In this document: positions 850-32,423 of the stretch, in pieces
Layout: each line of letters starts with the position of its first letter
How positions within the stretch are numbered: the stretch's first letter is position 1
DNA from: Spirochaetales bacterium
GTDB lineage: Bacteria > Spirochaetota > Spirochaetia > Sphaerochaetales > Sphaerochaetaceae
DNA: 32,876 nt
Assembly (NCBI GenBank): GCA_028719825.1
Contig: JAQYLW010000032.1
Span: forward strand, 1-32,876
Reading direction: 5' to 3'
The notes under the pieces: model-generated
The model's input: only the letters and a program-made list of their open reading frames with translations
Database searches by the model: none
Told to the model about the DNA's origin: nothing
Translations under genes and position numbers: made by a program

Positions 850-1460
850 TTTTTAAAACATTCGGCATAGTCAAAATCAACGCATAGTTTGGGGTTATCC
901 TTATAGTCGCAGTTGTATATTTTTAACTTATCCTTATTGTCGTTTATCAAACTTCGCACGCTTTGGTAATTTGAATTATCCAAAAACAGATTCTTCAAAT
1001 TGCTTTTAAAAAAAACGGGATGACAGGGAGTGGAATTAACAAACGGACGCACAATATCGCTATCTGATAAAAATGAATACAGCTTTTTATAATCATTTGG
1101 AGTAACAAATGGGGCATCACTAACGGATAAAGCAAAATCGGCATCCTTTTCTATGTTTTGTATTCCGCAAAGCACAGATGTGTATTGCCCTTTTTCATAA
1201 TAGATATTCTTCACGCACTTAAGGCTGTGCTTAGCGTTGAGGCGGGATATAAATTCTTTTGCGGCAGATGTTACCCTTTCACTTTCGTGTCCCGTAACTA
1301 AAACAACATCGGCAAATTCTAAAGCTGCAGAAAGCGAATATAAAAAAAGCGGTTTGTCATTATACAATTTCAGGAGTTTTTGTTCCCCTGAAAGTCGTCT
1401 TGACAAGCCCGCCGCCAATAAAACTATATTTAAACTACGCTGTGTAGTTTGATCTTCCAT
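846..1460 (-). CDS. MobA-like NTP transferase (nucleotidyltransferase family)
   Basis: N-terminal [20 protein letters not shown] motif and internal [11 protein letters not shown]. The likely start is MEDQTTQ, overlapping the 3' end of rpsU. Confidence 0.75.
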
Positions 1461-1656
1461 GCTGTTCCTTACCAAGCGTTCGTTTAAGCTGCTTGCGTTT
1501 TAAAGCCTTCTTTTTTCTGTTAAGAATTGTAGAGGGCTTTTCATAGAACTCACGATCGCGGAACTCACGAATGATTCCTTCGCGCTCAACCATGCGTTTA
1601 AATTTTTTTATTGCACGCTCAAGGTTATCATTCTCTTCAACCTTTACATAAGCCAT
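1435..1656 (-). CDS. rpsU: 30S ribosomal protein S21
   Basis: [42 protein letters not shown] is typical S21. Preceded by GGGGGTGAG (Shine-Dalgarno). Confidence 0.95.
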
Positions 1657-1709: not shown

Positions 1710-1733
1710 CCATAATTACAACACACTTATAAT
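1710..1733. repeat. 24-bp perfect direct repeat, copy 1
   Basis: CCATAATTACAACACACTTATAAT, identical to 2387-2410. Confidence 0.97.
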
Positions 1734-1758
1734 GTTGCACGTGTAAGAAAAAAAATTA

Positions 1759-2331
1759 TTATTCGTCCACTTTAAAATTTTTTACTTGAACATTTATTCC
1801 TGAATATACCGGCATTGGCAGAAGGGGACGTGGTGAATTATTACAGTGAAAATATAGTGGAACACAGTTCTTTTTATCATATTTTACCTCCGATTCAAGG
1901 TGATGGTGCGTTTTATCTTGTTCATATTCATTTTTTTCTCTTTGATATATTGTAGCTATTAACTCAAATACATCTTCCATAGTGTTCATTTCTTCAACAA
2001 ATATTTTATCGTAACTATTTTCATAGTTTTTCCATTTTTTAAGTTCAGTTATTTTCTCGTCGCAGTTTTCTTCATCCACTGCTCCCCCTCGTATCCAACT
2101 AAATTTCTTTGTAACAAGTTCCCCATCTTTTATTACTATATGAGCAACATATGTATTAGGTGCTGCATATTCTAATGAGCAATCAAATGAATAACTGGTA
2201 TATCCTTTTTGGATAAATTTGTTTTTATATTCTTCGAGTTCTGCCTCACTTATATATTTTGGGGATAAATCACACGAACAAAAAAGAAGTATTAAGAATA
2301 AAATAACAAAATAATAATTATTTTTCTTCAT
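1759..2331 (-). CDS. Small lipoprotein, DUF6174-like by eye
   Basis: MKKNNYYFVILFLILLFCSCD signal peptide with lipobox; body YTSYSFDC...VIKDGELV...MEDVFELI...VKYDKK. The start at 2331 is preferred over 2343 because of the promoter spacing. Confidence 0.75.
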   Translation of the reverse strand: MKKNNYYFVILFLILLFCSCDLSPKYISEAELEEYKNKFIQKGYTSYSFDCSLEYAAPNTYVAHIVIKDGELVTKKFSWIRGGAVDEENCDEKITELKKWKNYENSYDKIFVEEMNTMEDVFELIATIYQREKNEYEQDKTHHHLESEVKYDKKNCVPLYFHCNNSPRPLLPMPVYSGINVQVKNFKVDE

Positions 2332-2338
2332 ATTAAAA

Positions 2339-2367
2339 ACCATAACTTATACAATTATATCCGTCAA
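2339..2367 (-). promoter_or_regulatory. Candidate sigma-70 promoter TTGACG-N17-TATGGT, 7 nt before the ATG at 2331
   Basis: Minus-strand reading of 2367-2339. Confidence 0.5.
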
Positions 2368-2386
2368 GGAAAATATTAATTACATG

Positions 2387-2410
2387 CCATAATTACAACA
2401 CACTTATAAT
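2387..2410. repeat. 24-bp perfect direct repeat, copy 2 (contains the last codons and stop of the M16 gene)
   Basis: CCATAATTACAACACACTTATAAT; the reverse complement encodes ...IISVL-stop. Confidence 0.97.
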
Positions 2411-5254
2411 ACCGTTTGGATTGTTTAACTCTTCTGTTATTCTCTCTTTTGATGAAAGAGTGATTTTTTTGCATTCTCCGCTTATAAGCGAATCACGCGC
2501 ATTTAACACATCTTTCTTGGTTGCATTTATTATACGGTCAATATATGAAAGCCTGTATTCATCCGTAGTTTTTGAAAGGTATCTTATAAGTGAAAGCGCA
2601 CTGTCCTCCTCTGATTTTTTAACGCTTGCCAAGTCGGAAAGTGCAATTAATTTATATTTATCAAGATCGTCGTCAATTTCATCCTTTAAAGATAACAGCA
2701 TGCTATCATAGGTTTTTGAGATATTGGGATCACAGAAAGAATGCATCACAAACTGCCCCTCACTAAGATATGAAGAGCCACAGCCGTATGCTCCTCCATC
2801 AAGGCGTAATCTCTTCCATAATGAGGCTGAATTGAGAAATTCACAAAACACCGCATAAGCATTGTTTTCGGATTCTACAGAAAACGAAAGGGCGTTATAC
2901 GAGGTTGCAAAGGGATAGGAATACATTATATCCCTCATCTCTAAATTAGGAAGGCTACTGTAAACTCCCCGATAACAGCCCTGTTCAAAGGAATGTACAA
3001 ATGATAATATATCAATCTTTTTATCAGAAAGAATATGCACCGTAAGCCGTGATGCGGTTGTAATTCGGTTTATTACGCCAAGAAGCTGTTTGCCCGTTTT
3101 TTCAAACTCACCAGAATTGATTATTTCATTTGCAAAGCGGATTATCGGGAACGACAGAAGTTCCTTTTGAATTTGATTTTTATATGAAAATACGGAATAT
3201 GCCATAGGCATAAACATCGCTTCCGGCGAATACGTAAGGGATGAATACAAGCTTCCGTAAAAATCGGTCATGGTATTTTTTATGCTTTTTGCATTGTCGA
3301 ACTTACCGCATTGCAACAGGGACGACAACAGGCTTAAATATTGATCAACATCTTCATCGAGCATTTTAGCGCTTATTATCAGATACGATTTTATTTTTAA
3401 ACTGTTGTTTTGTTCCGTGACGGTTTTTATGGAAAAACTGAGTTTTACACAGTGCTTTAAAAGCTTTTTGGTAAATTCGGATGCAGAGGTATCTCCCACA
3501 TCAACATGAAAAGAAGCGGTATTCAACAAAGAGAGGATCTTCATTTCTTCAATGCTCAAATCGCTTATATCAAAAATAATATTTATATAGCTGATTCCCC
3601 GCGTATCCCTATATTTATAAATATAGCGAGAGGATGAGACCATATCTTCTTCATAGCTCTCTTGTTGGAAATACTGTTTTAAGTCGGAAAAGCTTGAGCG
3701 CGGACATATAACGCTCTTATTTTTATCTGCCTTGTTTAAGGATGCGTGTTTAGTGTCATTCTTTATATCGTAGTTATTATAGGTTAAAAGCGCATTGCTT
3801 TTGATGTTATCCATGGCTTTTTGTTTGACGTTTTCATCAGGACAAACCATAATAAGAGAATTTTTTGCACATAGAATATTCTCCTTAATGAAATCGGTAA
3901 ACAGGTTTTTGTTTTTTTTGTATTCCTCTTTAATTTCGTTAATAGTTTCGGATACACAAAGCGGCGATATATAATCGCTGCTGTTACGAACAATTGATGA
4001 GATAAGGCGCTTAGTCCATATAAGAGCATGGGGCTTTCTTGAACCGTCCTCCTTTATTAAAAACTCATAGTATTTAATGGACGATGTGATAAATTCCTCA
4101 TCTATTCCGTTTTGGACGACGGAATAAAGGATCTTTAAAAACTCCTCCTTTGCCCTTATCAAAGCCTCATCTATGCTCTCGCCTTTTTTTAATTTGAAAT
4201 CATCTATACCTATGCTGAAAACAGCGAACGGGAATGAGGTAATAAGACCGGAAATTGACGAGATATCACCACCAAGCTCAGATTCTTCTAAGGCTCGTGA
4301 TAAGGGCGATTGCGATGAGCCTAAAACAGCATCCTCTATTATTTTTAAAATCCACATACCTTTTTTATCCATAACAGAAACGCGCGTTAAAATATTCAGC
4401 GAGGCTGTGGGGGCGGATTTTTTGTTTTCCATCTGATAAGAGACGATTTTATCCTTAGGGGCTTTCACAAAATCAAGGTCTTGATAATTAATGTCCTTGT
4501 AATAGACGGCGCTGTTTGTTGTATCGCTTGCTGAAAATGATGATAAATACCTATCGTACATAATATCCAGCATTTCAAGTATTTCTTTTTTCCCCGACAG
4601 AATAAGCGTACAAACAGACGGCGAGTAATTTCGCTTGTAAAATTCTATAAACTCATCATATGTCAGAAGAGCTATTTCCTCCCCTTCTCCGCCGCTATCG
4701 AACTCATAAGGAGTTCCTTGAAACAGGGTGTTTCTTATACATCTAAACAGCTCTGTATCCTTATCAAATGAGGATGAGAGCATTTCTGAAAGAACTATTC
4801 CGTTGGCCTTTGCCTCACCGTTTTTTAAAATGGTTCGCTTAACTCCCTCTTTTTCAAACGATGCTTTTTTTAAAAGAGGACAAAAAACGGCATCGGCATA
4901 AACTTCAAAAATTTGTTTGAAGTCCTCAAAGAGCTTAGAAGAAGCAGGATAAAGCGTTGCGTCAGAAAAGGTCATGGCGTTCATAAAAGTATTTACGGAT
5001 ACTCCGTCAAGCTCCTTAAACGGATCCTCACTTTGATATCTTTTTGAACTTGAAAGAACGGTGTGTTCTACTATATGTGGAATTCCCTTATTATTATCGG
5101 GTAGAGTAGGAAAACAAAAAGAGAAGAAATATTCTTCATCGTTATTTTCAAAATACACAATCCTCATGTTTGTTTTTTCATGCTTGTAAATATGAACAAG
5201 GCTGCTTGTGTCTTTAATAAAAACAGAGGCTATCTCTACAAAACTGTTATTCAT
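2393..5254 (-). CDS. M16C family (presequence protease-like) zinc metallopeptidase
   Basis: 953 aa; inverted zinc motif HIVEH (HxxEH) in GIPHIVEHTVLSSSKRYQSEDPF, followed by NTFMNAMTFSDATLYP as in PreP-like M16C proteins. Confidence 0.9.
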   Translation of the reverse strand: MNNSFVEIASVFIKDTSSLVHIYKHEKTNMRIVYFENNDEEYFFSFCFPTLPDNNKGIPHIVEHTVLSSSKRYQSEDPFKELDGVSVNTFMNAMTFSDATLYPASSKLFEDFKQIFEVYADAVFCPLLKKASFEKEGVKRTILKNGEAKANGIVLSEMLSSSFDKDTELFRCIRNTLFQGTPYEFDSGGEGEEIALLTYDEFIEFYKRNYSPSVCTLILSGKKEILEMLDIMYDRYLSSFSASDTTNSAVYYKDINYQDLDFVKAPKDKIVSYQMENKKSAPTASLNILTRVSVMDKKGMWILKIIEDAVLGSSQSPLSRALEESELGGDISSISGLITSFPFAVFSIGIDDFKLKKGESIDEALIRAKEEFLKILYSVVQNGIDEEFITSSIKYYEFLIKEDGSRKPHALIWTKRLISSIVRNSSDYISPLCVSETINEIKEEYKKNKNLFTDFIKENILCAKNSLIMVCPDENVKQKAMDNIKSNALLTYNNYDIKNDTKHASLNKADKNKSVICPRSSFSDLKQYFQQESYEEDMVSSSRYIYKYRDTRGISYINIIFDISDLSIEEMKILSLLNTASFHVDVGDTSASEFTKKLLKHCVKLSFSIKTVTEQNNSLKIKSYLIISAKMLDEDVDQYLSLLSSLLQCGKFDNAKSIKNTMTDFYGSLYSSLTYSPEAMFMPMAYSVFSYKNQIQKELLSFPIIRFANEIINSGEFEKTGKQLLGVINRITTASRLTVHILSDKKIDILSFVHSFEQGCYRGVYSSLPNLEMRDIMYSYPFATSYNALSFSVESENNAYAVFCEFLNSASLWKRLRLDGGAYGCGSSYLSEGQFVMHSFCDPNISKTYDSMLLSLKDEIDDDLDKYKLIALSDLASVKKSEEDSALSLIRYLSKTTDEYRLSYIDRIINATKKDVLNARDSLISGECKKITLSSKERITEELNNPNGIISVL

Positions 5255-32104: not shown

Positions 32105-32175
32105 TACACAAAGTACAGCCTTGCGGATATTTTGGTGCTCAGGGAGCGGAAAATCCTCCAAGCATTCTGCGGATT
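32105..32175. repeat. 71-bp direct repeat, copy A
   Basis: TACACAAAGTACAGCCTTGCGGATATTTTGGTGCTCAGGGAGCGGAAAATCCTCCAAGCATTCTGCGGATT; 70/71 identical to copy B. Confidence 0.95.
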
Positions 32176-32266
32176 TAAGTTTGAGGTGTTTTCGGGGTAT
32201 TTTGCAAATCGGCAAATTCCTTAATATTCTAATCCTTGAAGATTCGAGTGAGAGTTGCGAACTTGA

Positions 32267-32320
32267 AGCCTGCAAGCAAGCGAAGATTGTACTTTGTGTA
32301 CTATCAAGCGCTTGCAGGCT
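32267..32320. repeat. Inverted repeat AGCCTGCAAGC / GCTTGCAGGCT within the mosaic
   Basis: 11-bp perfect arms, 32-nt interior. Confidence 0.85.
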
Positions 32321-32352
32321 GAGTTTGCAAATATCGCCGAAGATTCAAGGAT

Positions 32353-32423
32353 TACACAAAGTACAGCCTTGCGGATATTTTGGTGCTCAGGAAGCGGAAA
32401 ATCCTCCAAGCATTCTGCGGATT
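32353..32423. repeat. 71-bp direct repeat, copy B
   Basis: Same as copy A except one G-to-A difference (CAGGAAGCGG). Confidence 0.95.

Follow-up and report, generated by a model that had tools for sequence, protein, structure and literature searches.

A lipoprotein gene between exact 24-bp direct repeats at the 3' end of an M16 peptidase gene: a probable insertion with target duplication in a Spirochaetales bacterium

Comparisons of Helicobacter genomes have described insertions with long target duplications of variable length, involving restriction-modification genes, according to two papers (PMC1643837, PMC3031569). The unit inserted in Helicobacter pylori is a small gene unit without a transposase or integrase, its flanking target repeats differ in length and sequence from site to site, and the neighbouring gene is left intact. 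Nobusato et al., whom both papers cite, reportedly documented insertion with a long target duplication in this species in 2000. Three other systems share individual features with such insertions: tyrosine-recombinase islands in the 3' ends of tRNA or protein genes, in which a direct repeat restores the 3' end of the target; integron gene cassettes, which are one-gene units of <1 kb; and IS or MITE elements, which are flanked by direct repeats as target duplications. We analysed a stretch of 32,876 nucleotides from a Spirochaetales bacterium (hereafter the window), in which a one-gene insert lies between the gene for a PreP-type M16 peptidase and rpsU (Table 1). The locus resembles the H. pylori insertions in all the features named above, the variation of the repeats being seen across this insert and two sister loci of the same genome. 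It differs from them in cargo, which is an orphan lipoprotein gene here and a toxin-antitoxin pair and a 101-aa plasmid/phage gene at the sister loci, with no restriction-modification genes, and in the length of its duplication, only 24 bp.

Table 1. Coordinates of the features at the M16-rpsU junction (window positions) and of the two sister loci (contig positions)
Feature	Position	Strand	Description
rpsU (ribosomal protein S21), far side of insert	1435-1656	-	Pfam Ribosomal_S21
Outer 24-bp copy	1710-1733	-	Non-coding, upstream of rpsU; possible rpsU -35 box within
Unique insert	1734-2386	-	653 bp, 28.9% GC
Orphan lipoprotein gene	1759-2343	-	194 aa; lipoprotein-type N-terminus
Candidate lipoprotein-gene promoter TTGACG-17-TATGGT	2339-2367	-	Consensus match only
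Inner 24-bp copy	2387-2410	-	M16 last codons (ISVL), stop and 6 bp beyond
M16 (PreP-type) peptidase gene, 3' target	2393-5254	-	Pfam M16C_assoc, PreP_C, Peptidase_M16
Sister locus L130, contig C55	16606-17353		101-aa gene between 110-bp, 91% direct repeats, 638 bp apart
Sister locus L116, contig C41	6024-6701		YefM-YoeB pair between 46-bp, 89% direct repeats, 632 bp apart

A first-pass annotation of the window had reported a perfect 24-bp direct repeat at this locus, and we confirmed both exact copies of the 24-mer CCATAATTACAACACACTTATAAT, which are spaced 677 bp apart. The structure is real and non-random. None of 100 sequence shuffles reproduced the exact repeat pair, and across 20 genomes of 1.15 Mb simulated with a third-order Markov model, the longest direct repeats spaced 150-3000 bp apart measured only 15-19 bp, so the pair did not arise by chance. 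Past the 24 bp, no significant similarity was found between the flanks except for an AT-rich gapped stretch on one side. In the genome, isolated long repeats at comparable spacing were in direct orientation, and inverted repeats of at least 17 bp at such spacing nearly all belonged to one dispersed repeat family. This partly palindromic, intergenic family (TACACAAAGTACA...) occurs in the window at 32105-32423 and at L179, L181, L173, L114, L103, L088 and other loci; the TACACAAAGTACA word gave 22 matches in overlapping stretches, and the family often lies near contig ends, where it probably causes assembly breaks.

The inner copy encodes the M16 codons ...I-I-S-V-L-stop, and the protein ends in ...NGIISVL. 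Alignment with 27 homologues, one from a congener (38% identical) and 26 from other relatives, revealed that the M16 proteins stop at about the same position, indicating that the gene has its native C-terminus in the inner copy, in agreement with the annotation of this copy as the source of the last codons and stop of the gene. Any duplication that extends beyond an insertion point leaves the end of the gene in two copies, one either side of the insert; this apparent regeneration therefore does not by itself point to a specialised element. The outer copy, previously described as a non-functional remnant, is indeed non-coding, but it may be more than a mere remnant. Its TTGTAA (1721-1716), a copy of the final M16 codon and stop, is followed 17 bp downstream by TAAAAT and could serve as a predicted -35 box of rpsU. 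This assignment is only a suggestion, since TTGTAA-17-TAAAAT matches the consensus at 9 of 12 positions and such matches are no commoner than in shuffled sequence, so that one this good is expected by chance. If the predicted box is real, the duplication possibly preserved both overlapping functions, the end of M16 and the upstream region of rpsU. The promoter formerly ascribed to the insert itself fared no better: it likewise matches at just 9 of 12 consensus positions, and the matches in the region are no more numerous than in its shuffles.

As had been annotated, the sequence between the copies carries one small lipoprotein gene, which is its single ORF; a second in-frame ATG, at 2331, is a likely start. 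The GC content of the insert is well below that of the neighbouring genes (about 37%) and of the window (39%), and the genome contains no second copy of it. A Pfam-type profile search returned no family match for the ORF, the 139 family genomes held no confident relative (just weak, chance-level matches), and no relative was found in IMG/VR, plasmids, phages, PDB or profile libraries. A relationship to DUF6174 was considered and is unsupported; in the genome test, control genomes gave no signal either. The AlphaFold2 model of the single sequence reached a mean pLDDT of 37.8 and was left out of fold searches. In contrast to IS and MITE elements, the insert has no terminal inverted repeats at its borders, the best inverted pair beginning 11 and 58 bp inside the ends; duplications of 24 bp here and of 46 and 110 bp at the sister loci are also long and variable for an IS. 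This best pair (1745-1763 and 2310-2328), 19 nt long, 95% complementary and A+T-simple, falls at either end of the lipoprotein gene.

The first-pass annotation likened the locus to a non-autonomous cassette inserted in the 3' end of M16 and its repeat to a tyrosine-recombinase core site; in this reading, a tyrosine recombinase integrated the cassette at a 24-bp attB site. An exact 24-bp core, its location at the 3' end of a gene and the restored coding end agree with such integration, the 24-mer contains a weak dyad, and the XerC, XerD and third tyrosine recombinase of this genome could act in trans. However, the score of the dyad, which had been likened to a tyrosine-recombinase site, was reached by about 10% of random 24-mers from the window and about 4% of shuffles, placing it near background. 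The core of a site-specific cassette is expected to turn up at other sites or in other elements, yet the search for the 24-mer that the annotation had proposed yielded, with up to three mismatches allowed, no copy beyond the pair in the 1.15-Mb genome and none in 138 other family genomes, and no exact copy in GTDB220 contigs or IMG/VR. A 24-mer confined to this locus is half of a result that the annotation had named as refuting its reading, the other half being the lack of an empty allele. The two sister inserts bear unrelated repeats. The window does lack an integrase, as annotated, and all three tyrosine recombinases found in the genome are on other contigs. Two are the Xer proteins (XerC and XerD), encoded beside dnaA and ftsZ, and the third is on a 3.9-kb contig (L096, contig C63, 564-1481), amid apparent partial genes (radical SAM, GNAT and polymerase-like fragments); this contig could be a contaminant or mark a hot spot of integration. 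None of the three is an integron integrase (49-141 bits against the TIGR02249 cut-off of 265 bits), and the locus further departs from integron gene cassettes in having no array and in that its flanking repeat is target sequence. Whereas tyrosine-recombinase islands also restore the 3' end of their target, the insert here is one gene without an integrase, its core does not recur and its dyad does not rise above background. We consider integration at an attB site improbable. What is supported of the annotated cassette is a discrete one-gene insert at the M16 3' end, with a flanking duplication that keeps M16 intact; its mobility and the recombinase core site lack support.

Comparison of the genome with itself for repeat pairs, conducted in stretches over nearly the whole genome (about 23 kb of N and one or two contig tails excluded), uncovered two further small inserts of like anatomy, with repeats unrelated to the 24-mer. 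At L130, the duplicated sequence is the 5' end of a RecQ-type helicase gene together with the region upstream of it. The enclosed 101-aa gene is 82% identical in the congener G002, terminator included, where it adjoins a cytosine methyltransferase gene (named from its sequence, without a profile search), while ordinary genes of the two genomes are far more diverged (rpsU 68% and M16 30% identical). Homologues occur on plasmids of Parabacteroides, Phocaeicola, Bacteroides, Segatella and Streptococcus and also in faecal phage records. Judged by this identity amid diverged ordinary genes and by its plasmid and phage occurrence, the 101-aa gene is clearly cargo that has moved horizontally; the RecQ relatives found were too distant to show an empty site. 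The second insert, at L116 upstream of fusA, carries a complete YefM-YoeB toxin-antitoxin pair. Synteny breaks at fusA, where a different gene lies upstream in the congener and no empty site was found, and the L116 repeats could instead have arrived with the insert. Repeat length and sequence differ by locus; the three spacings (677, 638 and 632 bp) are alike, a likeness that carries no argument at n=3. Since the window repeat is identical and the other two have diverged, the window insert may be the youngest of the three, or its short repeat may be held by function on both sides. The other scanned pairs (L106, L122, L124, L079, L133, L162 and others) represented paralogous or repetitive coding sequence, tRNA genes or the dispersed repeat family, L106 and L133 being classed by repeat pattern alone. 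The array of long repeats at L133 (contig C58, 1-2470) has a 633-bp period and probably encodes a repetitive surface protein. About 400 kb of the congener G001, scanned likewise, contained no comparable single-gene insert.

Alternatively, nothing need have been inserted at the M16-rpsU junction: replication slippage or template switching might have carried 24 bp of the M16 end past a lipoprotein gene already in place, a local duplication in keeping with the mere 24 bp duplicated and with a lipoprotein gene that has no homologue to mark it as foreign. Against this, the far border of a low-GC orphan gene is precisely where the copy sits, and at other loci the genome has larger duplications on either side of genes that are clearly mobile. 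We regard such a duplication as very improbable.

M16 and rpsU were not adjacent in any other genome checked, and the nearest genomes, too diverged and with the two genes apart, yielded no empty allele. In G001, an aldo/keto reductase gene follows M16 and an ABC permease gene precedes rpsU; a close homologue of that permease gene sits elsewhere in the studied genome. G001 has retained the rpsU-NTP transferase and GH57-M16 neighbourhoods. A contig scan returned no close M16 relatives. As the insert falls exactly on a synteny breakpoint, the repeat could be a scar of the rearrangement that joined M16 to rpsU, which would also have picked up the lipoprotein gene and created the 24-bp duplication; in that case the locus would never have been an intact empty site. 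The separation of the two genes in G001 and all other genomes checked, the neighbourhoods retained there and the displaced permease gene all fit this origin. The congeners are so diverged, however, judging by the 38% identity of their M16 proteins, that the rearrangement could long predate an identical repeat, and the sister loci show insertion with duplication in the studied genome, yet one of them, at fusA, is a breakpoint as well. On balance, an origin as a rearrangement scar, the main rival reading, seems unlikely.

We favour a model in which a foreign single-gene segment was inserted by illegitimate recombination at the M16-rpsU junction, with duplication of 24 bp of the target, and assign it a probability of roughly 0.6. 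It builds on an exactly repeated 24-mer found nowhere else, an insert without a second copy, the native C-terminus of M16 and the two further inserts with longer, partly diverged repeats. On the other side, the M16-rpsU adjacency is itself derived, so a rearrangement also occurred at the locus, and 24 bp is short compared with both sister-locus repeats; the insert also lacks the restriction-modification genes of the published cases, and no donor copy of its lipoprotein gene was found. In this model, a foreign DNA segment of about 653 bp carrying one gene would have entered the junction without a site-specific recombinase, and 24 bp of target would have been duplicated during the event, either because both sides of a widely staggered break were filled in or because a DNA circle was captured by single crossover or template switching. 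The duplication would have made the insertion tolerable, because M16 keeps its last codons and stop and rpsU keeps its upstream sequence. We infer this mechanism from the occupied locus. We likewise infer, from these three cases, that the loci share one mechanism. That the genome gains single small genes by one transposase-free route, in which 24-110 bp of target is duplicated and units of 530-650 bp are taken up with a size preference, is a broader proposal that we put forward tentatively, as possible but doubtful. If true, it would carry insertion with target duplication beyond restriction-modification genes, to genes of very small size.

The event at the M16-rpsU junction is a probable further example of the insertion with target duplication already described. 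It is not well understood how a genome that lacks evident mobile elements acquires single genes, and the presence of two companion inserts in the same small genome adds to the interest of the window insert: three one- or two-gene inserts, each with a different target duplication, open this route to testing. The repeats pinpoint the junctions and predict clean loss by recombination between the copies and an empty site defined to the base, with the junction ...GGTATTATAAGTGTGTTGTAATTATGGAAAAGTTTTATT... between M16 and rpsU.
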